21,919 bases of DNA, from IMG/VR virus record IMGVR_UViG_3300025168_000769, positions 1 to 21,919 of that record; one strand, given 5' to 3'. The translations under genes and the position numbers were made by a program. Numbering within the stretch: the stretch's first letter is position 1; every line of letters begins with the position of its first letter. Source of the stretch: a virus. The notes beneath the pieces were generated by a model, which saw only the letters and a list, made by a program, of their open reading frames with translations, did no database searches and was not told where the DNA came from. This document shows positions 2,434-21,806 of the stretch, in pieces.

Positions 2434-2450
2434 ATATTTATAATAAAACA
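2434..2450 (+). promoter_or_regulatory. Putative late promoter, copy 1 (upstream of 2453)
   Basis: ATATTTATAATAAAACA fills most of the 26-nt gap between the sigma-factor gene and the gene at 2453. It matches two other intergenic sites (6594 and 17347) at 14 of 17 positions. The TATTTATAA core would serve as a -10-like element, giving a leader of only a few bases. There is no recognisable -35 element, as expected for a gp55-type promoter. The strand and exact start point are inferred. Confidence 0.5.
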
Positions 2451-2452
2451 AT

Positions 2453-2839
2453 ATGGATTCATTAAATCAAGTATTATTCGATGATAAATCTTTTGGAGAC
2501 TTACTAAAAGAAATTCACGGTAATCAAAAGAAAAAAGCCAAACAACTTGCATCTTTAATAGCTGAATTACGTCCTTTAGTCCAATCTTTAGGTGATGCCA
2601 CTGTCGTAGTTCCACTAATAAAAGAATATATGGAAATAAGTGTTAAAAATGACGACCAATTAATTAAGATGGCAGCTATTGTTCAACGTTTATCTACAGG
2701 TGCTTCTTCAACAGGAGATGGTGGTTTATTAACAAACGAAGAAATGGATCAATTAATGGATGTAGCTGAAGAAATAGCTAAAACAGTTGAAAAACCTAAA
2801 CAAATAGAAGCCCCCGAAGAAGATGGCAACAATAAATAA
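2453..2839 (+). CDS. Conserved small helical protein at head of tail module, 128 aa
   Basis: Residues 1-85 are helical (MDSLNQVLFDDKSFGDLLKE; later LIKEYMEISVKNDDQLIKMA and AAIVQRL). They are followed by a Gly/Ser/Thr-rich hinge (STGASSTGDGGLL) and an acidic C-terminal helix with a Lys/Glu tail. It is the first gene after the putative late promoter at 2434. Its last 17 nt overlap the spike gene start at 2823, so the two products are probably made together. That suggests an assembly factor or minor component of the baseplate hub, possibly with a job like the small T4 hub-assembly proteins gp26, gp51 or gp28. No motif confirms this, and it should be treated as an uncharacterised tail-associated protein. 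Confidence 0.7.
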   Translation: MDSLNQVLFDDKSFGDLLKEIHGNQKKKAKQLASLIAELRPLVQSLGDATVVVPLIKEYMEISVKNDDQLIKMAAIVQRLSTGASSTGDGGLLTNEEMDQLMDVAEEIAKTVEKPKQIEAPEEDGNNK

Positions 2840-4388
2840 TAATAAAAATATTAATGATTCTTTTTTAGGTGGGGGGAGAAATGTTGTCCCTTGCAAGGTT
2901 AAAAAAGTAATATTAGATGGATCCACCCCAGAAGCAGCTAATTTTGGGGGATATGATGCTGTAGGGATGATTTTCTTTAATAAAGTTCCAACATCAGAAC
3001 AACCTATTTATAAAGAGGCAAATATTAAAGAAGATCCTAAATTACCAATATTTGATGGTGTAGCTAAGCCCTTATTTCCTTTTTTAAAATACTACCCTTT
3101 AATTAACGAAATAGTACCTATAATTACACTTACAGGTAAAGATTATATGGATAATAGAAATGAGGGAGAAACTAATTATTATTTTCCTCCTATAAATTTA
3201 TGGAACCACCCCCACCATAATACTTTACCTGCTTTAAGTAATTATATAAGTAATGATAAATTAGGAGAAATAAGAAAAAATGAAGATTATGCACAAGCAG
3301 GTTTATTAAGAAGAACAACAGATGGTGAATTAGATTATGAAGTTCCCTTAGGAGACTATTTTAATGAACAATTAAATATTAAACCCTTAAGACCATATGA
3401 AGGGGATCATATAGTGGAAGGTAGATTTGGTAATTCACTTAGATTTGGAGCAACAGCTAGAAGTAAAACAATACCTGTATCTCAATCAAACAACTGGTCT
3501 GCGGGAGCTAAAGGTAATATAGGAGATCCTATTACTATTCTTAGAAATGGCCAAGCAGAAGGATTAGATGAAATGGGTTGGGTACCTACAGTTGAAGATA
3601 TTAATTTAGATGCATCATCTATTTATTTAACTTCAAATCAAAAATTAGATAACTTAACAATAGCAGCACCCGATTGTTGGTATTCTTTTGGTTTAAATGC
3701 TGATATACCTCAAGACCCTAACCAGGAAGCAAAAAAGTTCTTAGATTCACCTGTTGATTTTTTACAATCAGACGATGAAATAACATCAGAAACAACAACA
3801 ACTACAACTGATGAATCAACAGAACCAGTAGAACCAATAGAAACAGAACCAGTAGAAACAGAACCAGTAGAAACAGAACCAGTAGAAACAGAACCAACGG
3901 GTAATATTTCAGAAGACACAGCGGGATTAAATGAAGAAGAAATAGATCCAAATGAATATTACCAACAAGATTTTGGACAAGAATTAGAAATAATACAAAG
4001 ACCTCCATTACCTAATAGTTATCAAATAGCAACAGGTGCTAATAATTGTAGAAATTGTAATTTTAATAGACATCATTATTGTAATAATTGGAACGCAACA
4101 GTAAGAGCTAAACATGAAAACCCTTGGGTGTGTGGTGCTTGGAAAGCAAAAGGACCTTATGCTAATATTATAGGAAAATATTATAAGGGTATAGGAAAAG
4201 ACAAAGAATTTGACATAGCTGAAAGTTTAGCAAGACAAGACGCATTATCAAAAGTATATTCAGAAATAGGGAATACAAATGTAAATGTTGAATTTGGTGA
4301 TGATTACCAAACAGGAATACCAACAAGATATCAGGTTGATGGAGAATTAGAAGTATATTTTGCATTTAAAGTTAAATCAATAAGTTAA
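2823..4388 (+). CDS. Baseplate central spike/hub protein (gp5-like OB part) with Cys cluster
   Basis: A 521-residue protein. Around residues 193-209 it carries GDHIVEGRFGNSLRFGATAR, which resembles the OB-fold region of phage baseplate spike proteins in the T4 gp5 and VgrG family. GDPITILRNGQ and ASSIYLTSNQKL follow (about residues 238-275), again spike-like beta strands. No lysozyme domain is visible, unlike T4 gp5. Residues about 320-360 form a Thr-rich then TEPVE-repeat linker. After it comes a Cys cluster C409-x2-C412-x7-C420-x16-C437, with HH418-419 and aromatic residues around it, which suggests a metal or Fe-S site. The final 75 residues (IGKYYKGIGKDKEFDIAESL onward) form an alpha/beta domain. 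The start at 2823 is inside the preceding gene. It probably sits at the tip of the tail tube and pierces the host envelope. The structural-protein assignment is strong; the exact gp5 equivalence is inference. Confidence 0.75.
   Translation: MATINNNKNINDSFLGGGRNVVPCKVKKVILDGSTPEAANFGGYDAVGMIFFNKVPTSEQPIYKEANIKEDPKLPIFDGVAKPLFPFLKYYPLINEIVPIITLTGKDYMDNRNEGETNYYFPPINLWNHPHHNTLPALSNYISNDKLGEIRKNEDYAQAGLLRRTTDGELDYEVPLGDYFNEQLNIKPLRPYEGDHIVEGRFGNSLRFGATARSKTIPVSQSNNWSAGAKGNIGDPITILRNGQAEGLDEMGWVPTVEDINLDASSIYLTSNQKLDNLTIAAPDCWYSFGLNADIPQDPNQEAKKFLDSPVDFLQSDDEITSETTTTTTDESTEPVEPIETEPVETEPVETEPVETEPTGNISEDTAGLNEEEIDPNEYYQQDFGQELEIIQRPPLPNSYQIATGANNCRNCNFNRHHYCNNWNATVRAKHENPWVCGAWKAKGPYANIIGKYYKGIGKDKEFDIAESLARQDALSKVYSEIGNTNVNVEFGDDYQTGIPTRYQVDGELEVYFAFKVKSIS
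3819..3896 (+). repeat. 15-bp tandem repeat encoding a TEPVE linker
   Basis: The unit ACAGAACCAGTAGAA occurs at 3819, then three times in perfect tandem at 3843, 3858 and 3873, with a partial copy from 3888. A 9-bp partial unit (3834-3842) separates the first copy. It encodes repeated Thr-Glu-Pro-Val-Glu (residues about 333-358), a stiff acidic linker between the OB-like part and the Cys-rich domain of the spike protein. The in-frame unit means copy-number change would only alter linker length. Confidence 0.9.
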
Positions 4389-4389
4389 A

Positions 4390-5058
4390 ATGGCAAGACT
4401 ACCAGGAGAAATAGAAAATATAAAAAATATCACAGATGAATTTAGTAGAATTCAAGACAGTGGTATAAATCCTATATTAACACCCATTTATCCTAATGAT
4501 TATCAGGGTAAACAAGTAATAATAAACGCAGACAGACTAATTTTTAACGCTAGATTACAATTTAGTGGACAAGAAGCACAAGGATCAGCTCAAACTTATG
4601 AAGGAGGAGACATACATATGTTTTCACATAATTTTCTTTCTTTAAGTACAAATGGTAGCATTCATTTAAACACATTATACCCACAAGGAGGAGAATTAGC
4701 TGATGATACTAAAAATACCAAAAACTACATAATGATAAATGCTCCTAATATTTTTGTAGGTATGGACACGGCTGAAGGTAGACCAAAAAACTACCCAACA
4801 GAACCAGCAGTATTAGGTTTAAAAAACCAAGCATTAATGGATAAATTATTAAATTTACTTTTAGATTTATTACAAAAATTAAGTACATCTAATGTTCATA
4901 TAGGTGATAGAGGAGGAACTACTACTCCTATAGGTACTACATTTAATTCTATGAGTGAAGATTGGGATGGTGAAGGAGAACCTCTTCCTAATAGTATAGG
5001 TGAATTAAGATCTATGTTAAGAGAAATTAAAAGTAATCATGTATTTATAAAAAAATAA
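4390..5058 (+). CDS. Beta-rich baseplate spike-like protein, 222 aa
   Basis: The body is built of short beta-strand repeats: GKQVIINADRLIFNARLQFS, then GDIHMFSHNFLSLSTNGSIH, then NYIMINAPNIFVGMDTAEGR. This pattern resembles the beta-helical needle segment after the OB fold in gp5/VgrG-type spikes. It is followed by PTEPAVLGLKNQALMDKLL, a segment often seen in phage spike proteins where the needle ends and a helix starts. Residues about 145-165 form a Leu-rich helix, and the C-terminus is Gly-rich then basic. The ATG lies 1 nt after the spike/hub gene's stop, so the two may together supply the parts of one membrane-piercing device. A separate tail-tip or hub subunit is the alternative. Confidence 0.65.
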   Translation: MARLPGEIENIKNITDEFSRIQDSGINPILTPIYPNDYQGKQVIINADRLIFNARLQFSGQEAQGSAQTYEGGDIHMFSHNFLSLSTNGSIHLNTLYPQGGELADDTKNTKNYIMINAPNIFVGMDTAEGRPKNYPTEPAVLGLKNQALMDKLLNLLLDLLQKLSTSNVHIGDRGGTTTPIGTTFNSMSEDWDGEGEPLPNSIGELRSMLREIKSNHVFIKK

Positions 5059-5059
5059 A

Positions 5060-6586
5060 ATGAGTAATCTATTTAAAGGACAATCAGAAATAACAAACCA
5101 AATTAAGGATAAAATGAATTCGGTAATGAATAATATGCCAGGGGGTCAAATTCCTGAAAATGTATCATTATCTAAATTAAAAGGAATAGCACCTAATATT
5201 AACACTATAAAAAATACACTATCCCCAGATACAAATGTCCCAGAAACATTTTTAGCAGAATTTAATCCTTTAAATGATTTAATTAAAAATATACCAATAC
5301 CTACACCTAAATTAAAAACAGTAGATTTTACTCCTTCAGAACCCAAAATAGAAGAAGAAATAAATGAAGCAAAATTATTAGAAGAAGGAGTATCTAAAAA
5401 GAAAATAGATGAATTAAAAAGAAAAAGAGAAGCTAGACAAAAGGCAAATGAAGTAAAAACAGAAATTTCAAATAAATTACAATCCTCTGTAACAAGTAAA
5501 GTAAATAATATAATAGGGGGAGTTCAAAACTTAGCTCAAAGTACTCTTAGTGGAGCAGTAACACAAGCTATAGGAGGGATAGATAGTCCTATAATTCAAA
5601 AAATAGCAGCATATAAATATTTTAAGGCTCAATTAGGAACTGTTGATGAAAGAATGGCAAACATACAAGAACAAATAAATAAAATAAAAGAAGAAGCTAA
5701 GGAAGTACTAAAAAAACAAACAGATTCTATTGATAAAAAGGGTGAAATAGAAAAAGAAGAAAAGAAAAAAGAATCGGAAGCTTCATCTCAAGAATCAATA
5801 GCAAACACATTTAAATCAAAATCAAGATCAGGATCCCCTGAACCTGGTAGTAAACATAATAGTAAAACAACAAGAAAAGCTTTAGACCTAAGACAAAAGG
5901 TAGAAGGATTTAAAGCAGTAGCAGAACAAACAGCAGAAAATATAGGAAAATTACTAACAGATGTGTTAGGTAGTCTTGGAAATTTACTTTCAGTTATTTT
6001 AAAAGTAGTAGGAGCTCTTCTATCAGTTATTGCATTTATTATGTTTTTAAAACAATTATTAGAACTATTAATGTTATTATTATTTAAAAAAAGTAATAAT
6101 ATAAATAATGAAAATTCATCAGCTAATTCACCTGAAAACTTTTTAAACGAAATAGGATATCCTGGATTAACAAATGAAGATTTTTCAACACTTTCAACTC
6201 CTTTATCTCCTACACCTTTTGACACAACAAATACAAATTTTATAGAAGTAGATATATTTAACCCTATAATGTTTGGATCTTACCAAATAGGAGATCCTTT
6301 AACACAAGGAGATTTAGATTTAAATTCAGGAAAAGATTTTAATAATCATCCCTTATTAGGAGATTTAGAAGGCATACATCCCCAACTTACAAATCAACTA
6401 TATAATAATGGAACTTTACCTTTATTGGGAAGTGAACCATTAGATGTAAACCAATATTCAGAAGATTTAGATAAAATATATGATGATTTATTAAATGAAT
6501 TAGTAGAAACACAACAAATTGAATATATTGAAAAATTATATAATTTAGATTTTGAAATGATAGGATATAAGCGTTATAGAGCTTAA
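5060..6586 (+). CDS. Coiled-coil tail protein with hydrophobic segment, candidate tape measure
   Basis: A 508-residue protein. Residues about 95-140 and 195-250 are charged helices with coiled-coil character (KKKIDELKRKREARQKANEV; EQINKIKEEAKEVLKKQTDS), and residues about 240-275 are Lys/Glu/Ser-rich. Residues about 298-342 are strongly hydrophobic (LGNLLSVILKVVGALLSVIA, then FIMFLKQLLELLMLLLF), enough for one or two membrane helices. The C-terminal 160 residues are acidic and Asn/Pro-rich. Position between the spike genes and the wedge genes, length near T4 gp29 (590 aa), helical content and an internal hydrophobic segment fit a tape-measure protein, which sets tail length and can insert in the host membrane during ejection. 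No direct family match is visible, so this is inference; a hub-associated membrane protein is the alternative. Confidence 0.6.
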   Translation: MSNLFKGQSEITNQIKDKMNSVMNNMPGGQIPENVSLSKLKGIAPNINTIKNTLSPDTNVPETFLAEFNPLNDLIKNIPIPTPKLKTVDFTPSEPKIEEEINEAKLLEEGVSKKKIDELKRKREARQKANEVKTEISNKLQSSVTSKVNNIIGGVQNLAQSTLSGAVTQAIGGIDSPIIQKIAAYKYFKAQLGTVDERMANIQEQINKIKEEAKEVLKKQTDSIDKKGEIEKEEKKKESEASSQESIANTFKSKSRSGSPEPGSKHNSKTTRKALDLRQKVEGFKAVAEQTAENIGKLLTDVLGSLGNLLSVILKVVGALLSVIAFIMFLKQLLELLMLLLFKKSNNINNENSSANSPENFLNEIGYPGLTNEDFSTLSTPLSPTPFDTTNTNFIEVDIFNPIMFGSYQIGDPLTQGDLDLNSGKDFNNHPLLGDLEGIHPQLTNQLYNNGTLPLLGSEPLDVNQYSEDLDKIYDDLLNELVETQQIEYIEKLYNLDFEMIGYKRYRA

Positions 6587-6593
6587 CCTACTT

Positions 6594-6610
6594 ATATTTA
6601 TTAACAAACA
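6594..6610 (+). promoter_or_regulatory. Putative late promoter, copy 2 (upstream of 6620)
   Basis: ATATTTATTAACAAACA lies in the 33-nt gap between the tape-measure candidate and the gene at 6620. It shares 14 of 17 positions with the sites at 2434 and 17347. It would start transcription of the wedge genes (gp25, gp6 and downstream). Its core has one extra T compared with TATTTATAA, so it may be a weaker site. Confidence 0.45.
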
Positions 6611-6619
6611 CAATTAAAA

Positions 6620-7066
6620 ATGAAAGCAAAAACTTTTGAAAACCTAATTAGAAAAGTAGTTAGAGAAGAAATCGATTATGCGTTACGCAGAGAAATTAAA
6701 TCACTTAAAGAAGATTTACGTGATGAATTAAAACCTACAATAGTAGAACACACGGAAAAAAGGGTTGAAGTACCAGAAGTTACAAAAAAATCTTTAAAAG
6801 AAAAAATTATGGGCACACAACCTATAAAACATCATAAAACTCAAAACTATACCTCTAATAGTGCATTAAATGACTTATTAAATGAAACAGCAGCAGGAGA
6901 TACAAATACACAAACAGCCCAATCACCTGTAAATTTAGCTAATCCTTTTGCAACAGGAGGATCTTTACCTATGGATGTAACAAACATGCCAGAACCAGTA
7001 GCAAAAGCAGTAACAAGAGATTATAGTGGTTTAATGGGAGCAATATTAAAGAAAAAAAGAAACTAA
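6620..7066 (+). CDS. Helical linker-like protein upstream of gp25, 148 aa
   Basis: Residues 1-40 form an amphipathic charged helix (MKAKTFENLIRKVVREEIDY, then ALRREIKSLKEDLRDELKP). The middle (residues 55-125) is low in predicted structure, with Thr, Asn and Pro. The C-terminus has PEPVAKAVTRDYSGLMGAIL followed by KKKRN. The helix, disordered middle and short C-terminal helix look like an adaptor that bridges two partners. It is the first gene after a putative late promoter and stops 3 nt before the gp25 start, so a role in baseplate wedge assembly is reasonable. I do not recognise a named T4 equivalent; gp53 or a scaffold-like protein are possible but unsupported. Confidence 0.65.
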   Translation: MKAKTFENLIRKVVREEIDYALRREIKSLKEDLRDELKPTIVEHTEKRVEVPEVTKKSLKEKIMGTQPIKHHKTQNYTSNSALNDLLNETAAGDTNTQTAQSPVNLANPFATGGSLPMDVTNMPEPVAKAVTRDYSGLMGAILKKKRN

Positions 7067-7069
7067 TAA

Positions 7070-7564
7070 ATGGCAAACGTAAGAGAATACATTCAAATTA
7101 ACCCAGCAGAAAAAAGAAATAAAGCCTTAGGAGTTATATTTCCTTTTAATGCAGAGGGTGTATTTTATTCATCTTACACAACAGCAGAACAAGTAAAAAG
7201 TAATTTATTAAATGTATTACTTACAGAACCAGGTGAAAGAGTATTTAAACCTAATTTTGGAGTAGGATTAAGAAACTATTTATTTGAAAATTCAAATGAT
7301 TTATCTAATTTAGAAGAAAAAATTAATAACCAAATAAACCAAAATATAGCGGGTATAGAATTAGTAAGTGTCGATCTTATTAAAGAACCAGATAGTCATA
7401 AAATAAAAATAGCAATATCTTATAGAGTATTAGCTAATCAAGAATCAGACACTATACAAATTAATTTTTCACAAGATAGTAGCATTAACAATTCAGGAGC
7501 ATCTTCTCCAAGTGTAGGAGCTTCTTCAGGAGGTGGAGCTTCTTCAGGGGGAGGTGGGTATTAA
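7070..7564 (+). CDS. Baseplate wedge protein, gp25/gpW family
   Basis: Residues 20-138 match the GPW/gp25 family. The hallmark EPGERVFKPNFGVGLRNYLF (residues 53-72) carries the conserved Glu-Pro-x-Glu-Arg motif, preceded by a helix (VKSNLLNVLLT) and followed by the helix NLEEKINNQINQNI and beta strands (KIKIAISYRVL). In contractile tails this protein joins gp6 to the sheath and seeds sheath polymerisation at the baseplate. It is 164 residues against 132 in T4 gp25. The excess is mainly a C-terminal Gly/Ser tail (about residues 138-164) built from a short repeat, unusual for the family. gp6 follows after 11 nt, the order seen in P2 (W then J). This is one of the firmest assignments in the window. 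Confidence 0.95.
   Translation: MANVREYIQINPAEKRNKALGVIFPFNAEGVFYSSYTTAEQVKSNLLNVLLTEPGERVFKPNFGVGLRNYLFENSNDLSNLEEKINNQINQNIAGIELVSVDLIKEPDSHKIKIAISYRVLANQESDTIQINFSQDSSINNSGASSPSVGASSGGGASSGGGGY
7496..7552 (+). repeat. 18-bp repeat encoding the Gly/Ser tail of the gp25-like protein
   Basis: Two adjacent 18-bp units (GGAGCTTCTTCAGGAGGT at 7517 and GGAGCTTCTTCAGGGGGA at 7535), with a diverged copy from 7496 separated by 3 nt. They encode GASSGGG-type residues. The region is richer in G than its surroundings and probably grew by slippage or unequal copying. Confidence 0.75.
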
Positions 7565-7575
7565 AATAAAATAAT

Positions 7576-9456
7576 ATGGCTTATAATAAAATATCAAATA
7601 AAACACCAATAAAAGATATAAAATATCTAAATAAAGATTTTAATTCTTTTAGATCTGATCTTATAGAATTTACAAAAACTTACTATCCAGATACTTTTAA
7701 TGATTTTACAGAAGGATCTCCAGGACTAATGTTTATGGAGATGGCCGCTTATGTGGGAGATGTTTTATCATATTATACTGACACCCAATTACAAGAAGTA
7801 TTTTTAGACACAGCTCAAGAAAGAACAAATTTATTTCATTTAGCATATACATTAGGATATAAACCTAAAGTAACATCAGTTGCTACAACAAATTTGGATA
7901 TATTTCAATTAGTACCCGCTTCAACAACAGATAATTTTTCTCCGGATTTTAACTATGCATTAACTATTAACCAACCCTCTTCTTTTTCTTCAGGTAATAT
8001 TAATTTTATACTTCAAAATCCAGTAGTTTTTGATTTTTCATCTTCTTTTGACCCAACAGAAATTTCAGTATATTCAGTAGATTCATTTAATAATCCAGAA
8101 TATTATTTATTAAAAAAATCAACACCAATAATTTCAGCTGAAAGAGTTAGTAAAGACTTCCAAATAGGAAATATTGAAAGATTCTTAATATTAGATTTAA
8201 TAGATGAAGAAATAATAAATATAGAATCTATTATAGATTCAGATGGAAATGAATACACAGAAGTACCTTATTTAGCTCAGGACACAGTATTTGAAAATAT
8301 AAATAATGTTCAAGGAAATACAACATCATTATATGAATTTCAAACAGAAACTCCTTATCTTTTAAAATTAAAAAGAGTACCAAGAAGATTTGTCTCTAGA
8401 TTCACATCAGATGGTATACTAGAACTTCAATTTGGAGCAGGTGATTCAAATAAATCAGATGAAGAAATACTTCCAATTCCTGATAATATTGGTTTAGGGG
8501 GTAGAGATGGAAGAAGTAAATTAGATCAATCTATTGATCCTTCTAATTTTTTACATTCTCAAACATACGGAAAGTCACCATCAGACACAACATTAACTGT
8601 TACCTATTTAAGAGGAGGAGGAATTAGATCAAATGTACCTCAAAACACTATAAATAAAATAAACACAGTAACAATTAATACAAAACCTAATTTAAGTGGT
8701 CCTATTGTATCTTTTTGTAGAGAATCCTTAGCATGTTCTAACACAGTAGCAGCTACAGGTGGGGGAGGTGCTGACACAACAGAAGAAATAAAACAAAAAA
8801 CAGCAGCAAATTTTGCTACACAACAAAGAGTAATAACTAAAGAAGATTACTTAATTAGAACTTTATCTATGCCCTCTATTTATGGTAGTATAGCTAAAGC
8901 ATATATAGTAAAATCATCAGAAATAGAAAGATCAAACCCAAATGTAGAATCTTCTCAAATTTCTTCAAATTTATACTTACTGGGTTATGATAATGATAAA
9001 AAACTTACAACATGTAATGATGCTACTAAAACAAATTTAGCAACATATTTAAATTATTACAAACCACTAACAGATTCTATTAATTTAATGGATTCTTTTG
9101 TAATTAATTTTGGTATTGATTTTGAAATTTCAACTTTTAGAAATAACAATAACCAACAAGTACTATTAGATTGTATAAATGAACTAAAAGATTATTTTAA
9201 TATAGAAAAATGGCAAGTAAATCAACCTATAATAGAATCAGAAGTTTATAATTTAATAGGTAATGTAAAGGGAGTACAATCTGTTATAAATGTTATTTTT
9301 AATAATTTAGCAGGCACAGAGTTAGGATATTCTCAATTTAAGTACGATTTTGAAACAGCAACTAAAGATGGTATTATATATCCATCATTAGATCCAAGTT
9401 TATTTGAAATAAAATACCCAGACACAGATATTAAAGGTAAAATAAAACAATACTAA
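7576..9456 (+). CDS. Baseplate wedge protein, gp6/gpJ family
   Basis: A 626-residue protein, close to T4 gp6 (660). The N-terminus has the family signature with a Thr-Glu-Gly-Ser-Pro-Gly turn (residues 45-50) and the helix LMFMEMAAYVGDVLSYYTD (51-69), then QERTNLFHLAYTLGYKP. Around residues 402-430 it has the baseplate-J segment TEEIKQKTAANFATQQRVIT followed by KEDYLIRTLSMP, where the Asp-Tyr pair is typical. gp6 dimers form the continuous iris ring of the baseplate, joining the wedges and changing conformation when the sheath contracts. It follows gp25 by 11 nt and precedes a tail structural gene by 1 nt. Between the two family segments it carries a Gly-rich loop and strands typical of phage insertions. 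No truncation or frameshift is visible. Confidence 0.95.
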   Translation: MAYNKISNKTPIKDIKYLNKDFNSFRSDLIEFTKTYYPDTFNDFTEGSPGLMFMEMAAYVGDVLSYYTDTQLQEVFLDTAQERTNLFHLAYTLGYKPKVTSVATTNLDIFQLVPASTTDNFSPDFNYALTINQPSSFSSGNINFILQNPVVFDFSSSFDPTEISVYSVDSFNNPEYYLLKKSTPIISAERVSKDFQIGNIERFLILDLIDEEIINIESIIDSDGNEYTEVPYLAQDTVFENINNVQGNTTSLYEFQTETPYLLKLKRVPRRFVSRFTSDGILELQFGAGDSNKSDEEILPIPDNIGLGGRDGRSKLDQSIDPSNFLHSQTYGKSPSDTTLTVTYLRGGGIRSNVPQNTINKINTVTINTKPNLSGPIVSFCRESLACSNTVAATGGGGADTTEEIKQKTAANFATQQRVITKEDYLIRTLSMPSIYGSIAKAYIVKSSEIERSNPNVESSQISSNLYLLGYDNDKKLTTCNDATKTNLATYLNYYKPLTDSINLMDSFVINFGIDFEISTFRNNNNQQVLLDCINELKDYFNIEKWQVNQPIIESEVYNLIGNVKGVQSVINVIFNNLAGTELGYSQFKYDFETATKDGIIYPSLDPSLFEIKYPDTDIKGKIKQY

Positions 9457-9457
9457 A

Positions 9458-10642
9458 ATGGCATATTATTCTATATTTCCTGAAAAAGACACAACATTAT
9501 ATAGTCATCCAGATCGTATTAATATGAATACGGGTAAAGATGAAGCATTAGAATTAGTTGAAGAAAAAGCAACAACAGGTGAAATTTATTACCCTTCAAG
9601 AATTTTAATCAAGTTTAAAAGCACAGACATACGAGATGTAATTCAAAATAAACTAACAGGTGTTGCTAAAGAAGTAACAGCTAATACAATTGAAATATCT
9701 TTAGATTTATTCACAGGTGAAAATAAAAGCCTAACGGCAGACCATACTATAGAAATCTTCCCTTTAAGCGAATCTTTTAATGAAGGAACACAACGATATG
9801 ATGCTAATCCTCCCTCAACTACAACAGGAAGTTTTCAAGCAGCAAATGGAGCTACTTGGGTTCATAGAACTAATGCTACATCATCTTTATGGGCTCACGC
9901 TACAGGATCTATGGGGGCAACAGGATCTTGGCTATCAAATGATATTGCAATAGGTGGGGGGATATGGTATACAGGTAGTGGGTTTAGATCAGAAGCAACC
10001 TTCTTAGCAGAAGATAATTTAGATTTATCTTTAGATGTAACTACTATAGTACAAAAATATTCATCAAGTTTTTATCAAGATGCAGCATACCCAACAGGCC
10101 TTACTAATAATGGATTTATAATTAAAAAACTAGATTCTACAGAAGAAGATGGTTTTGGTTTTGGTGAACTACAGTATTTTTCATCAGATTCGCATACAGT
10201 TTATCCCCCTAAATTAACTTTTAAATGGGATGATTCATCATATAACCCAACAGTTGGAGCTACAACACTAGAAAGTGGAGATATATTTTTATCACTTTAT
10301 AATAGTAAGCAAGAATATCAAAGAAAATCAAAACACCGTTTTAGAGTAACTACAAGAAAAAGATACCCAGATAGAACATTTATATCTTCTTCAAATTATC
10401 TAGACATACAATATTTACCAGCTACTAGTTATTATAGTGTACGTGATGCAGAAACAAATGAAGTAATAATACCTTTTGATACTAGTTATACTAAACTAAG
10501 TGCAGACAGTGAGGGTATGTACTTTGACTTACATATGGAAGGATTTCAACCAGAACGTTATTATAAATTAATGCTTAGATCTGACAATCTTGAGGGTATT
10601 CAGATACATGATGAAGATTATTCTTTTAAAATAGTAAGATAA
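9458..10642 (+). CDS. DNRLRE-like beta-rich tail/baseplate structural protein
   Basis: A 394-residue, beta-rich protein. Residues 1-60 resemble the DNRLRE domain: FPEKDTTLYSHPDRINMNTG then a Glu-rich strand and the Arg-containing RILIKFKSTDIRDV. Such domains occur in surface and adhesion proteins and form a jelly-roll-like fold. The middle is rich in Gly, Ser, Thr and Trp (GATGSWLSND, GGGIWYTGSGF). The C-terminal third contains regular strands (RFRVTTRKRYPDRTFISSSN; FDLHMEGFQPERYYKLMLRS), consistent with an Ig- or fibronectin-like domain. It lies between gp6 and a coiled-coil gene and overlaps the latter by 1 nt (TAATG). It probably decorates the wedge, occupying the place of T4 gp8, gp10 or similar proteins, though I cannot equate it with any of them. 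Confidence 0.65.
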   Translation: MAYYSIFPEKDTTLYSHPDRINMNTGKDEALELVEEKATTGEIYYPSRILIKFKSTDIRDVIQNKLTGVAKEVTANTIEISLDLFTGENKSLTADHTIEIFPLSESFNEGTQRYDANPPSTTTGSFQAANGATWVHRTNATSSLWAHATGSMGATGSWLSNDIAIGGGIWYTGSGFRSEATFLAEDNLDLSLDVTTIVQKYSSSFYQDAAYPTGLTNNGFIIKKLDSTEEDGFGFGELQYFSSDSHTVYPPKLTFKWDDSSYNPTVGATTLESGDIFLSLYNSKQEYQRKSKHRFRVTTRKRYPDRTFISSSNYLDIQYLPATSYYSVRDAETNEVIIPFDTSYTKLSADSEGMYFDLHMEGFQPERYYKLMLRSDNLEGIQIHDEDYSFKIVR

Positions 10643-10983
10643 TGAAGTTAAATAAAAAAATATATACTACTCAAGAATCTGATAAACTAATAGATAAATC
10701 TTTTAAAGAATTAGGAAGAAAAACAGAGGGAACTTCACTAACTAATTTTTTTGAAATATATAATAATCTATTTTTAGAAATACCAAAATCAGGAATAAAC
10801 TCTCATGCAACTTTAGCTAGTAGAAGTAATAGATATATAGGTTTACAACAAACAAACGTAGAACTAAGTAGAGCTAATAAAACAATTAAAGATTTAAGAG
10901 ATAAAATCTCAAGATTAGAATCAGAAAACGAAACATTAAAATCAGAAAACGTAGAAAAAGATAGAAGATTAAATTCTCTATAA
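10642..10983 (+). CDS. Short C-terminal coiled-coil protein, 113 aa
   Basis: ATG at 10642 shares its A with the stop of the previous gene (TAATG), a typical termination-reinitiation arrangement. Residues 70-113 form a clear coiled coil with Leu/Ile heptads (NVELSRANKTIKDLRDKISR, then LESENETLKSENVEKD). The N-terminal 65 residues look like a small globular domain (IYTTQESDKLIDKSFKELGR; TNFFEIYNNLFLEIPKSG). It sits between two wedge or adhesin genes, so it is probably a trimerising or bridging part, or a chaperone for the giant protein that follows. No named family is recognised. Confidence 0.7.
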   Translation: MKLNKKIYTTQESDKLIDKSFKELGRKTEGTSLTNFFEIYNNLFLEIPKSGINSHATLASRSNRYIGLQQTNVELSRANKTIKDLRDKISRLESENETLKSENVEKDRRLNSL

Positions 10984-10993
10984 AAATAAAAAT

Positions 10994-13900
10994 ATGGCTA
11001 ACATTGTTTCACAAAATACCTCTCCTACTTTAAACTTAAAGAATATTGAAGATTTAGGTTCTACATTAGTAGATAGAAATTTTGGTAGGCCCGAAGATTA
11101 TATTAATATCCACATATATGATCTTAATGATAACCTTTTAGACACTGTTGAAAATTTTAAAGGATATAAATCAGAACAAAATACAAAAGGTTTAATACAA
11201 GATCTAAATTTAGATCCTTTAGAAATATTAAATGAATTAGGATATATAACAGGTACTTATAATATAAAAGTAAATATACAAAAAAGGAAAATATTTAACA
11301 CTATTACTCCTGCTTTTAAAATAAAAGAAATATCCTCTACAAGAACAGAATTAAAATTAACAACTGTTCTATCTTCAAATAATACTAATTTAGCTAATAA
11401 CTCAAGAAATTTTGTACAAGCAGTTCAAAATTCAACCTATTTTAGAGATTTTATATTAAATTTCGGAAGAGATAGAAATATAACAGCAGTAAATATTGCG
11501 TTAGATACATCAAACCCTAATGACACTACTTTACAAATAAAATTATTAGAACCTCTTTTAGAAAATTTAGAAACAGGAGATAAATTATCTATAGTAGAAA
11601 ATATAGTAGATCCTGTTATTTTAACTTATGATTTAGGTTTATTACCTTCTACAGACACAACAATATCCATAAAAGGTCCTAATTTTAAAATAGACACTAG
11701 ATTAAATAATTCAGTACCAACAGCTTTTAGATCATATGATGATATATTAAGTACTTCAACAACTTCTTCTTACCAAAAATTAGTAAGTAAATTAAAGGGA
11801 TATGATGTACCAGAAATAGATTATGGATATGTAAGACCCACAGACACAGCCTCTTTAAATTTTGAAACAGTAACACCTACCCATTTTGAAAATTTTGTAC
11901 ATTTTGGTAGTGCAACTGAATTACTAAAAAACTTTGAATATAAATTAAAATTAATAGAAGTATATGATAAACAAATACATGAATTAAATCTAATATCAGG
12001 ATCATCTTTAAATACTGTAATATCAGACTCTTCTTCTTCTATTTCACTTAAAAAAGAAAACCTAATTCAAGGTTTTAGTGGATATGAACAATATTTATAT
12101 TTTGAATCTGGTGCATATTCATGGCCTAAAAGTGGATCTCACCCACAAGAAGAACCTTACATACAATCACACACAACTTCATCAGAAGCATCAGCTTGGT
12201 TAGGTAGCACAAATAATTCTATCACTGAGGGTTCAGGACAGTTATCATCAGCTTCAATTTTTGATAAACAAAACCCAAACAGATTAATGAAATTAGTCCC
12301 TACTTTTATAGGGGATAGAGAAGAAAACCAACCATTTGAGTTATTTTGTGATATGATAGGAGAACATTTTGATCCTGTTTGGACACATGTAAAAGAAATA
12401 ACACAAACAATAGACAATAGCCATAAATTAGGTGTTTCTAAAAATTTAGTATATTATATGCTACAAAATTTAGGAATAGAAGCCTACGACCAATTTGAAA
12501 ATGAAGATTTAATAAATTACATTTTTGGTCAGTCAATGATAACTAATGATACTTCAACTATTATAACAGGTTCTAATGAAACTTTTGCAAAACAAGATAT
12601 AACAAAAGAAATATGGAAACGTTTATACCATAATGCACCTTATCTTTTAAAAACTAAAGGAACAGAAAGAGGTTTAAGAGCATTAATTAATTGTTATGGT
12701 GTTCCAGACACAGTATTAGATATTAAAGAATTTGGTAGTTCAGATCCCGATAGAGATAAGTTTAAATTATACACATATAATAAATTCACTCAAGTATTAA
12801 GTGGTAATTCTTTAGATAAAACTAAAAAGGGGATGTTTATTGAAACAGCATGGACAAGTTCAAATACAGATGCTATGATATTAAAACCTTCAGCGTCTGC
12901 TAAAACAGTTGAATTTAGAATTAAACCAACAAGATCAGGATCAGATGCTTATCATTTATTCTCATTAACAAACCACACAACACAAAGTTTATCTGGTTCA
13001 GATTTACACTTAGTTTTACATCCATACACAGGTAGTCATGACTTTTTTGCAACAGATGATAAAACACAATATGGTAAATTAGATTTACTTCATTTTACCT
13101 CAAGTATACTTACTTCTTCAGGACATCAATTAACAAGTCCTGTTGAATTAGCAGATACAGTAAATGTAACAGCTACTGGAACAGGAGCAACTATTAATAA
13201 CAAAAGTAGAGTAACTTTTATATCAGACGCAGGTGATGATTTTGTTAGTCCTATTGTTCCCGCAAGTATAATGACAGCAGGAAAAAGATATAATGCATCA
13301 GCTACTATATCAGAATATTTAGACACTTCAGGAACAGATTCAATTGGGTTTGGAAATTCAGGAGGTATAAGCAGTAATATTGGAGAAGGCAGAATAACAA
13401 GTAATGGTAATATTTCTCATAATTTTACTTCTGATGGAAACGAAATAAATATATTCGCAGGAGATGGAGTAGCAGGAGTAATGGATAATATATCTGTAAA
13501 AGAAATACTTCATGATTCAGAATATTTCCCTATATTTAATGGAAATTTTTGGGACATATCTTTAGGAACAGATGGAATTTCAGGTAGTGATTCAACTGTA
13601 CACTTAGGTGCTTATCAATCAAACCATTTAAGAAACGTATTACATTATACTTCTTCAGCAACTATAGATGAAATTACTAATGCTGAATCATTTGGTAGTA
13701 GATATTATTCAGACACAGGAAGTTTAATACAAAATGGAACCTTTGCTAATTTTAATGCTGGTACTCAAACTGTTGATAATTGGACATTACAAGATAATGG
13801 TGATGGGTTTCAAGCATCTACATCATGTGTATTTAGAGCAAACCAAGGTCAAGGCCAAACAGGAGTTGATGTTACAATAGCACTTATATCTACAGATGGT

Positions 13901-16900
13901 ACTACAAAAAGATATGAGGGAATTGCTAGTAACGTGGGTATCCTTAATGGGGCTCTATTAGGAAATGGTAATACTGCCTTCCATTCAGATGGAACTATAC
14001 CAGAAAATACTTTAGCATTTAAATCAGCTGTAGAAGGAGGAATTACAGGCCATGCTGGTAGAATTAACATTGCAATATCATCAACTAATGCTTCTGAAGA
14101 CACTGTAACTTTTACTCAAAATGTAGGAGGAACAGCTGGAAATACAAGCATAACAGTAGGAGGTGATTGGAATAATTTATCCTCTACTCCAAATAATTTT
14201 AGTGGAGGAACTAATGATCATGCTACTTTTTCATCTGTAACTAATGGTATTAAAATAACAATTGATTCAACTCCTACAAATACTTTTGAAGTTAGAGTAA
14301 AACAAAACGTGTCTAATAACTTAAAATTAGGACATAAATACAGATTAAGCTTTGAAGCTACAACAACAGATAGTAATCTAAATGCTTTTATTTCAACAAC
14401 AAATGGTCAAAATAATCAATTAGATCCTACTAATGCAATTAATAATGGTCCAGTTATTACTGATTCTAGTTACACATATTATCAAACTACCTTTGAAACA
14501 ACATATATAAACGACACTAATAAAAGAATAGACACTAATCAAAGTAGTGATGATGGGGATTTATTTATTCATTTTTATTTAACTAGTGCAGCAACGAGCG
14601 ACACAGCAGAAATTAGAAATGTAAGAATAGAAGAATTAGGAGCCCCAAGTAGTGCCTATTTAGGGGGAATAAAAAATTACAATAAAGGAGGTATAATTAC
14701 AAGTTCTTTTTACACTAATAATAATATAGAGGGTTTTAATTTAAAAGATGGAAAAAGTGTTTTTGATTTAGGTTATAATGGTGGTATGTCAGAAGTAAGA
14801 TATTATTTTGGTGAATTACTAAACCATAATACATTACAACAACATGCTTTAGAACCTTTAATATATGGAGGTAATACTATATCATCATCATTTGATCATT
14901 TAATTGTAAGATATCCTTTATCTTTTGAGTTAGATTTATCTCATGGTTCAACATCACAAGTAGGAGGAGTAATCTCAAACCCAAATAATGGAACTGTTGG
15001 AACTACTATTCAAGGTGGTGCAGTAATGAACACAGGATTAACCCCTCAATTTACAGTTCAAGGTATACCTTTATTACAATCTCACCACCCTAACATAGAC
15101 ATAGATTATTTAGAGGGATTTACACTCTTTAATAATAGTAATGTAGAACTATTACAGGAAGAACATCATTTACCTACACCAAATACAATAGGAAAATCAC
15201 CTGTAAATAATAAAGTAAGAATAGATAAAGGAACCACAGACGATAATATTTTATCACCAGATATTTTATCACAATTACCTTCATCAGAAAGACAAGTTCC
15301 TGACTTTAGTAATATTGGTGTGTATTTGTCTCCACAAAATGAAATAAACGAAGATATAATTTATACTTTAGGTACATTTAATTTAGATGAATTTTTAGGA
15401 GATCCTAGAGAAGAAACATCAGAAACATACGAAGATTTTAAACCTTTAGTTGATCAATATTTTAAAAAGTTAAAAAAAGGAAAAGACAGATATAATATAT
15501 TTGACTTTACAAGATGGGTTTCTTTCTTAGATCATACTTTATTTGACTTAATTAAAAAATTTACACCTCAAAAATCAATAGACAAAACAGGAGTACTAAT
15601 TGAACCTCATTTTTTAGAAAGATCTAAATTTAGAAGATATCATCCGATAGTAAGTAATACAACTTATGAAGGAGTTTTACAAGAAATAACACAATCATTC
15701 CATAAAAATAATAATACATCCTTATTAAATGGTACTTTAGGAACAGCAGTAATATCTTACACAGCAATTTCTTCAAGTAATACCCATATAAATTATAACA
15801 CATTTATAGATGTAGCAAAAGCATTATCAGGCAGCAGTACATGGGAACAAAGTGGTTCAAATGAATTAAGACCTCATGTTTTAACCCCTAAAGGTAACTT
15901 TATAAATTCTAAAATTAGTAAAGTTAAATTTAAACTATACACTTCAGGAGGATTAGAAACAGGACCAGGCACATTAACATCAACAGAATTTGATGATGAA
16001 TTAATAGATTTAGCAGGTTGGAATAATCCACGTTATGAAGGATCAAAACTAACAGGAGTAAAAGTTAATGAATATAATGAAGGAGATATAACTTATGGTT
16101 TAAATCCTGTAGTAGAACAAAAATCAGCAGCAATCTATTTTGGTAAATCATTAATAGGTGCAGATGAAGAAGATAATGATTTAGTTACTATTAAAAACCA
16201 TTCATATATTAACATAGAAAAAATTATGTTAATTAATAAGTACACTGATGAAATTACTACAATTGATCTTAAAAATGAAAACTATAATGGTATAAATGGA
16301 TATATTGCAAATGATCTTAAAGATGGGTCTGGATTTAATATAGAATTATTAGATGATAAAATTACTCATAAATTAAGAGACTCTTACAAAGCTAAATTCA
16401 ACCAAGGATACTTAAAGAAAACCATAGAACATAAAGGAATGAATGGAACAGGAGTAACATTCGGAGAGGGAATCCAAGCAGGATATCTTGATGTAGTTTC
16501 AAGTGCACCAAGTGTGTATTATAATGCATTAGACACACAAAATGTATTTTGTTATGGTAATCTTAATACTACAATGAATAATAATACTTTAACCTTAAAA
16601 AGTAATCCTTTAACTAGACAAATTTGGTCTACTAAAGATACATTTGGTACATTAAGTTTTAATACAGGTAGTTTTGATTTTGTTAATAGTGGTATGCAAC
16701 AATTAGGAACATTTATTAATTCAATGTTAATACCAGTTGCTTCTGAAAGTCAGTATAGATTATTTGGAACATTAAATTTAGGTCAAAAACAAAATCAAGG
16801 TAACTACACAGCATCTTTTAATCAAGGAATTAAAAGTATAAGCACATTTGAAATTGATTTAGAAAAATATGATACAACTGATTCTATACAAGTTTCAAGT

Positions 16901-17329
16901 AGTCTTTATATAGATGGAATCAATAGAACTATAGACCATCCAAAACATTATTTACTTCCTACTATGCAAGGACCACATGATCTTATGACAAGTGGAATAC
17001 CAGCGGGGAATGGAGGACCAACAGGAAATTCAACTACAGAAGTTTCTGGTACTACTACTACATCAACAGCAGTTGAACTACAATTTTATTGGGGGGGAAT
17101 TGGTACTCAAAACGCAATATACCAAATTTCATATTTAGAAGAAACAAACACAATTATAGCAGATATAGACAAACCATCAGAACTATCAAACGATGTGGGT
17201 GATGAAGGATTTGTTATTATACCAGACAATATAGATAAAGACATTAGAGATAACTTATCTTTTTATTTAGACAAAGCGGGATTAAAAGCATCAGCGGGAG
17301 TTGAAAAACTACCTTTACGAAAACTTTAA
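10994..17329 (+). CDS. Giant baseplate wedge/adhesin protein with gpI-like (Tail_P2_I) segment, 2111 aa
   Basis: A single uninterrupted frame of 2111 residues, the largest gene here. Residues about 430-585 hold a Tail_P2_I-like segment: ELFCDMIGEHFDPVW, then KEIWKRLYHNAPYLLKTKGT and ERGLRALINCYGVPDTVLDI. In P2-type tails gpI links the wedge to the fibre. Residues about 610-700 look LamG/ConA-like (FIETAWTSSNT, TVEFRIKP). About 710-838 and 912-1215 are carbohydrate-binding-like segments ending in DNISVKEI and VRIEELG; the second is interrupted by another domain at about 955-1075. Later blocks include GELLNHNTLQQHALEPLIYG (about 1270-1290), DFTRWVSFLDHTLFDLIKKF (about 1504-1523) and a beta-rich C-terminus. 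The order after gp25 and gp6 matches W-J-I. It may take over the roles of T4 gp7 and of receptor-binding subunits. The baseplate assignment is firm; the adhesin role is inference. Confidence 0.8.
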   Translation: MANIVSQNTSPTLNLKNIEDLGSTLVDRNFGRPEDYINIHIYDLNDNLLDTVENFKGYKSEQNTKGLIQDLNLDPLEILNELGYITGTYNIKVNIQKRKIFNTITPAFKIKEISSTRTELKLTTVLSSNNTNLANNSRNFVQAVQNSTYFRDFILNFGRDRNITAVNIALDTSNPNDTTLQIKLLEPLLENLETGDKLSIVENIVDPVILTYDLGLLPSTDTTISIKGPNFKIDTRLNNSVPTAFRSYDDILSTSTTSSYQKLVSKLKGYDVPEIDYGYVRPTDTASLNFETVTPTHFENFVHFGSATELLKNFEYKLKLIEVYDKQIHELNLISGSSLNTVISDSSSSISLKKENLIQGFSGYEQYLYFESGAYSWPKSGSHPQEEPYIQSHTTSSEASAWLGSTNNSITEGSGQLSSASIFDKQNPNRLMKLVPTFIGDREENQPFELFCDMIGEHFDPVWTHVKEITQTIDNSHKLGVSKNLVYYMLQNLGIEAYDQFENEDLINYIFGQSMITNDTSTIITGSNETFAKQDITKEIWKRLYHNAPYLLKTKGTERGLRALINCYGVPDTVLDIKEFGSSDPDRDKFKLYTYNKFTQVLSGNSLDKTKKGMFIETAWTSSNTDAMILKPSASAKTVEFRIKPTRSGSDAYHLFSLTNHTTQSLSGSDLHLVLHPYTGSHDFFATDDKTQYGKLDLLHFTSSILTSSGHQLTSPVELADTVNVTATGTGATINNKSRVTFISDAGDDFVSPIVPASIMTAGKRYNASATISEYLDTSGTDSIGFGNSGGISSNIGEGRITSNGNISHNFTSDGNEINIFAGDGVAGVMDNISVKEILHDSEYFPIFNGNFWDISLGTDGISGSDSTVHLGAYQSNHLRNVLHYTSSATIDEITNAESFGSRYYSDTGSLIQNGTFANFNAGTQTVDNWTLQDNGDGFQASTSCVFRANQGQGQTGVDVTIALISTDGTTKRYEGIASNVGILNGALLGNGNTAFHSDGTIPENTLAFKSAVEGGITGHAGRINIAISSTNASEDTVTFTQNVGGTAGNTSITVGGDWNNLSSTPNNFSGGTNDHATFSSVTNGIKITIDSTPTNTFEVRVKQNVSNNLKLGHKYRLSFEATTTDSNLNAFISTTNGQNNQLDPTNAINNGPVITDSSYTYYQTTFETTYINDTNKRIDTNQSSDDGDLFIHFYLTSAATSDTAEIRNVRIEELGAPSSAYLGGIKNYNKGGIITSSFYTNNNIEGFNLKDGKSVFDLGYNGGMSEVRYYFGELLNHNTLQQHALEPLIYGGNTISSSFDHLIVRYPLSFELDLSHGSTSQVGGVISNPNNGTVGTTIQGGAVMNTGLTPQFTVQGIPLLQSHHPNIDIDYLEGFTLFNNSNVELLQEEHHLPTPNTIGKSPVNNKVRIDKGTTDDNILSPDILSQLPSSERQVPDFSNIGVYLSPQNEINEDIIYTLGTFNLDEFLGDPREETSETYEDFKPLVDQYFKKLKKGKDRYNIFDFTRWVSFLDHTLFDLIKKFTPQKSIDKTGVLIEPHFLERSKFRRYHPIVSNTTYEGVLQEITQSFHKNNNTSLLNGTLGTAVISYTAISSSNTHINYNTFIDVAKALSGSSTWEQSGSNELRPHVLTPKGNFINSKISKVKFKLYTSGGLETGPGTLTSTEFDDELIDLAGWNNPRYEGSKLTGVKVNEYNEGDITYGLNPVVEQKSAAIYFGKSLIGADEEDNDLVTIKNHSYINIEKIMLINKYTDEITTIDLKNENYNGINGYIANDLKDGSGFNIELLDDKITHKLRDSYKAKFNQGYLKKTIEHKGMNGTGVTFGEGIQAGYLDVVSSAPSVYYNALDTQNVFCYGNLNTTMNNNTLTLKSNPLTRQIWSTKDTFGTLSFNTGSFDFVNSGMQQLGTFINSMLIPVASESQYRLFGTLNLGQKQNQGNYTASFNQGIKSISTFEIDLEKYDTTDSIQVSSSLYIDGINRTIDHPKHYLLPTMQGPHDLMTSGIPAGNGGPTGNSTTEVSGTTTTSTAVELQFYWGGIGTQNAIYQISYLEETNTIIADIDKPSELSNDVGDEGFVIIPDNIDKDIRDNLSFYLDKAGLKASAGVEKLPLRKL

Positions 17330-17346
17330 ATTTTTGAAAACATATT

Positions 17347-17363
17347 ATATTTATAACAAAACA
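17347..17363 (+). promoter_or_regulatory. Putative late promoter, copy 3 (upstream of 17372)
   Basis: ATATTTATAACAAAACA lies in the 42-nt gap after the giant wedge gene, the longest gap in the window. It shares 14 of 17 positions with the two other copies. It would drive the three structural genes that follow. No hairpin terminator is visible in the same gap. Confidence 0.5.
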
Positions 17364-17371
17364 TAACAACA

Positions 17372-18064
17372 ATGGGATATTTAGACAATACAAGCATCAC
17401 CGTAGATGCAATTTTAACAAAAAGAGGACGTGAATTACTTGCAAGAGGAGACGGTTCTTTTAATATAACACAATTTGCATTAGCAGATGATGAAATTGAT
17501 TATACTTTATTTAATGAAAATCATCCTAATGGTTCACAATTTTTTGGAGAAGCAATTGAGAATATGCCTCTTTTAGAAGCAATTCCTGATGAAAATAACA
17601 TTATGATTCATAAGTTAGTTACATTACCAAGAGGAACAACAAAAATGCCTATTGTAACTGCTAATGTGTCTAAAATTCAATTATCACTTGGTGCTTCAAC
17701 ATCAGTAAACCCAAATACATTAAATTTCCAAGGCTTAGCAAACGTAACAGAACCAGGAGGTTATTTAGCTACAATTGCAGACAGAAGATTATTAGTAGCA
17801 TTTGAGGGTGTAGGTGGAGCTACAGCAACAACAACAGCAAGACCATTTAGTAATTCAGCTTTAAGTGAAACTATTAGAGGAGGTTCATTCTCATTAACAG
17901 CAATTAACAGTACAACATTATTCGGTGATAATTCTAAATTATTAACTACTTTAACTATTGAGGGTGTTGATTCTGGAGCAAGAGTAACTATTCCAGTTGA
18001 AATAACTAAAGATGTAATAGCAACATCAAACACTCAAGGAGTAACCGGAGTAACATTAACATAA
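17372..18064 (+). CDS. Conserved virion structural protein, 230 aa
   Basis: The N-terminal 100 residues form a compact conserved-looking domain: MGYLDNTSITVDAILTKRGR, then ELLARGDGSFNITQFALADD and EIDYTLFNENHP, then MPLLEAIPDENNIMIHKLVT. I associate this pattern with structural proteins of marine phages, but have no named function for it. Residues about 105-230 are Ser/Thr-rich beta strands resembling an Ig-like domain (GGSFSLTAINSTTLFG; LTTLTIEGVDSGARVTIPVE), as often found on phage surface proteins. It follows a putative late promoter and precedes two related structural proteins by 6 nt, so it is probably part of the baseplate periphery or a fibre-attachment subunit. The virion role is likely and the exact place unknown. 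Confidence 0.65.
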   Translation: MGYLDNTSITVDAILTKRGRELLARGDGSFNITQFALADDEIDYTLFNENHPNGSQFFGEAIENMPLLEAIPDENNIMIHKLVTLPRGTTKMPIVTANVSKIQLSLGASTSVNPNTLNFQGLANVTEPGGYLATIADRRLLVAFEGVGGATATTTARPFSNSALSETIRGGSFSLTAINSTTLFGDNSKLLTTLTIEGVDSGARVTIPVEITKDVIATSNTQGVTGVTLT

Positions 18065-21377: not shown

Positions 21378-21806
21378 ATGCAATGGAACTATCAAAACAA
21401 ACACATACAAGAAATTAATGACCTTCCAGAAGGTGCATTTGGTTTCATCTATCAAACAACTCACATTCCAACAGGAAAAAGATACATTGGTAAAAAATCT
21501 TTAATTTATAATTTAAAGAAAAAATTAGGTAAAAAAGAAAAAGCCCTATGGGAAGGTAAAGGTCGCCCACCAGTATACAAAAGAGTATTAAAGGAAAGCG
21601 ATTGGAAAACTTACTATGGATCACATGCATTTATTAAAGATGCAAATGATGATGATTTAGAAAGAACAATTTTACAAGTGGCTTACAATAAAAAAGAACT
21701 TACATACTTAGAATGTAAATACCAATTTATATTAGAGGTTTTAGAAGATAAAAAATATCTTAATGACAATATATTAGGTAAGTTTTACGATAGAGACTTT
21801 AAATGA
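21378..21806 (+). CDS. GIY-YIG nuclease-like protein
   Basis: A 142-residue protein with the GIY-YIG core: GFIY (residues 22-25) and YIGKK (36-40), with R35 between. Further conserved features are SDWKTYYGS (74-82), E112 in LTYLECKYQFILE (the position of the catalytic Glu), and N131 in LNDNILGKFYDRDF. GIY-YIG enzymes cleave DNA using a Tyr pair, Arg and metal-bound Glu. No separate DNA-binding domain of a homing endonuclease is present, so a phage DNA-processing or host-DNA-degrading nuclease is as likely as a mobile element. It overlaps the primase gene by 4 nt (ATGA), which ties it to replication genes. It uses TGA as its stop, the only gene here to do so, as the overlap requires. Confidence 0.75.
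   Translation: MQWNYQNKHIQEINDLPEGAFGFIYQTTHIPTGKRYIGKKSLIYNLKKKLGKKEKALWEGKGRPPVYKRVLKESDWKTYYGSHAFIKDANDDDLERTILQVAYNKKELTYLECKYQFILEVLEDKKYLNDNILGKFYDRDFK

Follow-up and report, generated by a model that had tools for sequence, protein, structure and literature searches.

Phage T4 reads its late genes from promoters made up of an AT-only octamer, TATAAATA, which lies at -10 without a -35 element and is served by gp55, gp33 and gp45, the phage supplying a small sigma factor of its own (PMC2988020). In marine T4-like cyanophages (S-PM2 and others), a late promoter of the same type, NATAAATA, has been predicted in silico from the gaps before late genes (PMC2984593). Far-T4 phages are widespread in water, and Roux et al., who did not detect the T4 transcription-regulation core genes in them, left their transcription open (PMC4360716); marine Far-T4 viruses have been linked to Bacteroidetes (Tominaga et al., PMC7198788), the primary-sigma promoters of which carry a TTTG at -33 and a TAHHTTTG at -7 (PMC6847099). 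A literature search that left most subscription journals outside its scope returned no publication pairing Far-T4 with a promoter, nothing on phage Mel-JY01, and no paper in which TATTTATA is described as the late promoter of a phage; a T4 structure paper has this sequence only in the template strand.

Here we analyze a 21,919-base IMG/VR fragment (the window; 29% GC, some 20 genes encoded on a single strand), whose nearest annotated relatives are Flavobacterium immuto phages and Microcystis phage Mel-JY01, and which, having no terminase gene, is placed among the Far-T4 phages through shared genes. Three of its gaps hold the motif ATATTTAT, followed by a loose WANMAA. We consider it likely that this motif is a Far-T4 late-gene promoter of the -10 type with no -35 element, at which host RNA polymerase, together with the product of a sigma-like gene at 1650-2426, would begin transcription some 5-6 nt downstream. 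The function is very probably an ordinary one, that of a late promoter; what is unexpected is its sequence, in a large branch of T4-like phages that has been little studied.

Three sites in the window and their conservation before orthologues

The putative promoter sites are 17-mers on the plus strand at 2434-2450 (ATATTTATAATAAAACA), 6594-6610 (ATATTTATTAACAAACA) and 17347-17363 (ATATTTATAACAAAACA); their octamers span 2434-2441, 6594-6601 and 17347-17354, and transcription is predicted to start at about 2446, 6606 and 17359, respectively. As an earlier note on this DNA had reported, the copies agree at 14 of 17 positions and fill the three longest gaps in the window (26, 33 and 42 nt; the next longest are 23 and 17 nt). 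When both strands were scored with a matrix trained on relatives only, from which window-like sites had been taken out, the three highest-scoring positions were the sites at 17347, 6594 and 2434, in that order, at 18.6-19.4 bits. The fourth-ranked position reaches 10.3 bits, leaving a margin of 8 bits over the rest of the window, and Markov-1 simulations give a mean of 0.015 hits per window at the score level of the three sites. The same note's caution that the core alone is not specific was borne out: the 8-mer TATTTATA by itself occurs 13 times in the window against 8.6 expected, which is near chance, and it was rejected as the core in favor of the invariant form, ATATTTAT. A further candidate site, GTATTTATAAAAAAATA at 5041, lies within the terminal part of the 4390 gene, has a low matrix score and was likewise discarded.

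Each site precedes, on the plus strand, what would be the first gene of a late unit. For the first of these genes (2453-2839, 128 aa), 80 relatives have an orthologue placed after the sigma gene and the motif; the second (6620-7066, 148 aa) is succeeded by baseplate genes that PHROGs identify as gp25-like (7070) and gp6-like (7576); and the third (17372-18064, 230 aa) is 60% identical to an immuto protein also preceded by the motif. The suggestion that the sites stand before blocks of structural genes can be followed as far as these two baseplate genes, while most of the other genes match no named family. Elsewhere in the window, a short tandem repeat of ACAGAACCAGTAGAA units is visible by eye at about 3831-3895, within the 2823 gene. 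The best PHROG match of 21378-21806 is 'NAD synthetase', which looks like a naming error; homing-endonuclease families match as well, and in Mel-JY01 the counterpart carries a GIY-YIG annotation.

Orthologues were drawn from two sets of 80 IMG/VR loci, one surrounding the sigma gene and the other the 17372 gene, and the 60 nt upstream of their starts were read. ATATTTAT stands before 80 of 80 orthologues of the 2453 gene, 36 of 37 of the 6620 gene and 80 of 80 of the 17372 gene, down to a protein identity of 33%, and all 367 regions read upstream of eight further genes (sigma, 2823, 4390, 5060, gp25-like, gp6-like, 10994 and 18071) lack it; since the loci are related and cannot be counted as independent, the weight lies on this contrast between gene sets. 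The 19147 gene, with the octamer in 12 of 49 upstream regions, has it in some lineages only.

The motif favors one strand and the morphogenesis genes

We scanned immuto (NC_055915.1; 160 kb, complete), two IMG/VR contigs, G001 (155 kb) and G002 (169 kb), and a close relative, G005 (73 kb). On the main gene strand of immuto the octamer ATATTTAT occurs 31 times, 23 of them in intergenic DNA, which makes up 7% of the sequence, versus four times on the other strand; the corresponding counts are 42 (36 intergenic) versus 10 (1 intergenic) in G002 and 67 (50 intergenic) versus 18 (7 intergenic) in G001. The earlier note had proposed a whole-genome matrix scan. Run in these relatives with the 17-position matrix at 13 bits, it returned hits that lie between genes, keep to one strand and sit directly ahead of gene starts: forward hits are intergenic in 15 of 16 cases in immuto, 13 of 15 in G002, 26 of 31 in G001 and 4 of 6 in G005, and reverse hits number 1, 1, 2 and 2, respectively. 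Nor is the motif equally frequent inside genes in these relatives, its matches favoring morphogenesis genes. In immuto, [AC]TATTTATW precedes 20 of 62 genes of the morphogenesis modules versus 13 of 170 genes elsewhere (p=9e-6), and the genes so preceded include those for terminase, portal, tail spike, a virion structural protein, tail sheath, tail tube, baseplate hub and tape measure.

Mapping of immuto proteins onto G001 and G002, by which upstream motifs were compared gene by gene, shows that both contigs keep the motif before the terminase gene, the portal gene, the next gene, PhoH, the tail tube and hub genes, and the 2453- and 17372-type genes. In immuto, G001 and G002, no replication gene among those tested has it upstream. 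The box is also absent before the gp25-like and gp6-like genes of all three genomes and before the major capsid gene of immuto, a pattern that fits reading from the first gene of a unit. Intrinsic terminators lie just upstream of 5 of 29 immuto sites, as against 3 of 96 other starts. Conservation, the strand and intergenic bias, and the preference for morphogenesis genes in relatives together support, at the level of sequence, the earlier reading of the motif as a late promoter.

Form of the motif and comparison with host promoters

The invariant core of the motif is the octamer ATATTTAT, after which comes the loose WANMAA. An initial definition, TATTTATAA with a following CAAAAC, survives in part: ATATTTAT is the invariant stretch, A and T both occur at position 9, and CAAAAC is mostly variable, with only two of its A's (positions 13 and 14) strongly conserved, at 85% each in 75 non-redundant sites. 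A fixed 17-mer was given up because the downstream letters differ by lineage (TGATAAACGC, ACGTAAACGC, ATCCAAA), the octamer and a weak WANMAA being what is kept. The motif is a single box without a -33 or -35 element; a TTG partner upstream of the octamer is not enriched at any offset, and is present in at most 5% of the 75 sites and 7% of the immuto late sites. A positive control for this test is provided by a second class of immuto sites, ATATTTAGGTA, which has a TTG exactly 24 nt upstream in 16 of 16 cases (spacing TTG-21 nt-ATATTTAGGTA; also written TTG-ATATTTAGG). These sites are found mainly at 61-76 kb (NC_055915.1 60955-76215, also 22093), as well as in loci L083 and L084, before mostly small genes with no assigned function. 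Their arrangement is close to the Bacteroidota primary-sigma design (PMC6847099), a likeness for which we call them early-type, and they look like host-sigma early promoters.

It is unlikely that a Bacteroidota primary sigma also reads the octamer, as a degenerate -7 box (TAHHTTTG) and with no phage sigma involved. A T directly 5' of the octamer in 60% of sites does yield TATATTTA, which resembles the -7 box, but the octamer sites contain neither the -33 TTTG nor the -7 TAHHTTTG, and at -5 the nearly invariant host G is always A, with the next base always T (PMC6847099). The -33 elements of F. johnsoniae are weak (PMC6847099); for the octamer, a TTG partner is not enriched, though immuto keeps a separate class of sites with one. 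ATATTTA occurs in the immuto early-type sites too, yet the octamer ATATTTAT is present in Mel-JY01, a phage recorded from a cyanobacterium.

The distance from octamer to ATG ranges from 4 to 36 nt, and the long distances come mostly from loci with Shine-Dalgarno-like leaders, where the octamer lies upstream of the leader. At a distance of 4, position 13 is the A of the ATG, so that the mRNAs would be leaderless. In loci L034-L042, the octamer that precedes the 2453-type gene shares bases with the final part of the sigma coding sequence and stops 4 nt short of the ATG, and the transcript there would have no leader. A signal for translation initiation or mRNA processing within the leader might likewise sit 4-36 nt before start codons, and the downstream A-richness would suit Bacteroidota starts, which lack Shine-Dalgarno sequences; such a signal is nonetheless very improbable, given that only certain genes have the motif and always the same ones, that its distance to the ATG varies widely, that it stands upstream of Shine-Dalgarno-like leaders where these are present, and that some sites come directly after terminators.

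Comparison across the T4 supergroup and the candidate sigma factor

A single motif pipeline, applied to T4, cyanophage P-TIM40, Mel-JY01 and Rhodothermus phage RM378, yields the known boxes in the sense direction (TATAAATA in T4, ATAAATA in P-TIM40), ATATTTAT in Mel-JY01, and TTATTTAA on both strands of RM378. Genes of RM378 run on both strands and TTATTTAA follows gene direction, divergent neighbors included; it is probably the late box of this phage. Between positions 30001 and 80000 of RM378, ten annotated starts, distributed over both strands and including that of the portal gene, have TTATTTAA 14-25 nt upstream. The RM378 box resembles that of the window in its TATTTA core, its sense orientation, its place before late genes and the presence of a distant sigma relative, but differs in its flanking bases, and RM378 is very divergent. 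A terminase tree sets T4 and P-TIM40 against immuto, Mel-JY01, RM378, G001, G002 and LR756508 with 100/100 support, RM378 having a long branch. The simplest reading is that a TATTTA-type late box belongs to the Far-T4 side, whose phages appear to use a late promoter of this type; the late box would then not be constant across the T4 supergroup.

With T4 the window shares an AT-only octamer at a putative -10, with no -35 and before late genes, and a phage with what would be a small sigma of its own; with the cyanophages it shares a prediction made in silico from such gaps. The box itself differs. TATAAATA is nearly the reverse complement of ATATTTAT (its own reverse complement is TATTTATA), the cyanophage box, being the same as that of T4, is also of opposite sense, and TATAAATA in the sense direction precedes only 1 of 80 2453-type orthologues. 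The earlier comparison with T4 is refined on this point: the site is not a T4-type box, and TATAAATA reads the opposite way. It is scarcely credible that the sites are T4-type boxes (ATAAATA) of the minus strand, directing transcription to the left. Reverse-complemented, ATATTTAT becomes ATAAATAT and has ATAAATA in common with the T4 box, but transcripts from such a promoter would enter the preceding gene in antisense, the ATAAATA of T4 and P-TIM40 is in sense orientation, and RM378 TTATTTAA keeps to gene direction on both strands.

If the octamer is a late promoter reading into the downstream units, host RNA polymerase carrying the sigma from 1650-2426 would recognize ATATTTAT, melt the AT-rich DNA at the box, and start about 5-6 nt 3' of the octamer, at the conserved A's, to give short leaders into the late units. 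The 1650-2426 product (plus strand, 258 aa), a divergent sigma-like protein, is the likely reader of the box, an assignment we infer from its role, adjacency and co-occurrence. Pfam Sigma70_r2 matches it at E=0.011 and a relative at 0.0022, both below the cut-off, and a structure model built from alignment rows of the window and related loci only (pLDDT 70.7, pTM 0.43; moderate confidence) finds mostly sigma factors in the PDB, with a best E of 0.036. These signals of sigma-70 region 2 are consistent with membership in the sigma-70 family, while lying below thresholds. A search of solved structures with the sigma sequence profile returned nothing; in phage genomes it picks up a relative in RM378 (E=1e-10) and none in T4 or P-TIM40. 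The PHROG gp55 (late-sigma) family has one match in immuto, exactly this sigma gene (KNV73_gp118; E=0.008), and hhalign of the sigma profile against gp55 gives E=0.0027 but a probability of only 11%. What had been noted as a sigma factor gene adjoining the first copy of the motif is thus a sigma-like gene of remote, sub-threshold similarity.

Compared with the T4 sigma, the candidate is longer and has a predicted extra C-terminal helical part. Unlike T4, the relatives examined gave no match to a gp45 clamp, neither N nor C domain being detected in immuto, RM378, Mel-JY01, G001, G002 or G004; in the control, T4 was matched by both domains and P-TIM40 by the C domain only, and since the N-domain model missed the cyanophage clamp, a divergent clamp could be missed. 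No bacterial-type beta clamp was found in these phages. A tentative possibility is that Far-T4 late transcription is clamp-free, with a two-domain sigma (region 2 plus the C-terminal helical part) reading ATATTTAT, approximately the reverse complement of the T4 box, and that box and sigma co-diverged at the most basal split within the T4 supergroup. The octamer, the candidate sigma and the cultured model immuto make the question of Far-T4 transcription directly testable, and the octamer offers a practical means of marking late operons in the genomes of many uncultured phages.

A relative of the sigma is also present in LR756508, a 484-kb phage in which ATATTTAT is not enriched in the stretch examined and no box of its own was found. 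The reading frame of this relative (LR756508.1 100306-100980) continues across a single in-frame TAG, a hint of stop-codon recoding.
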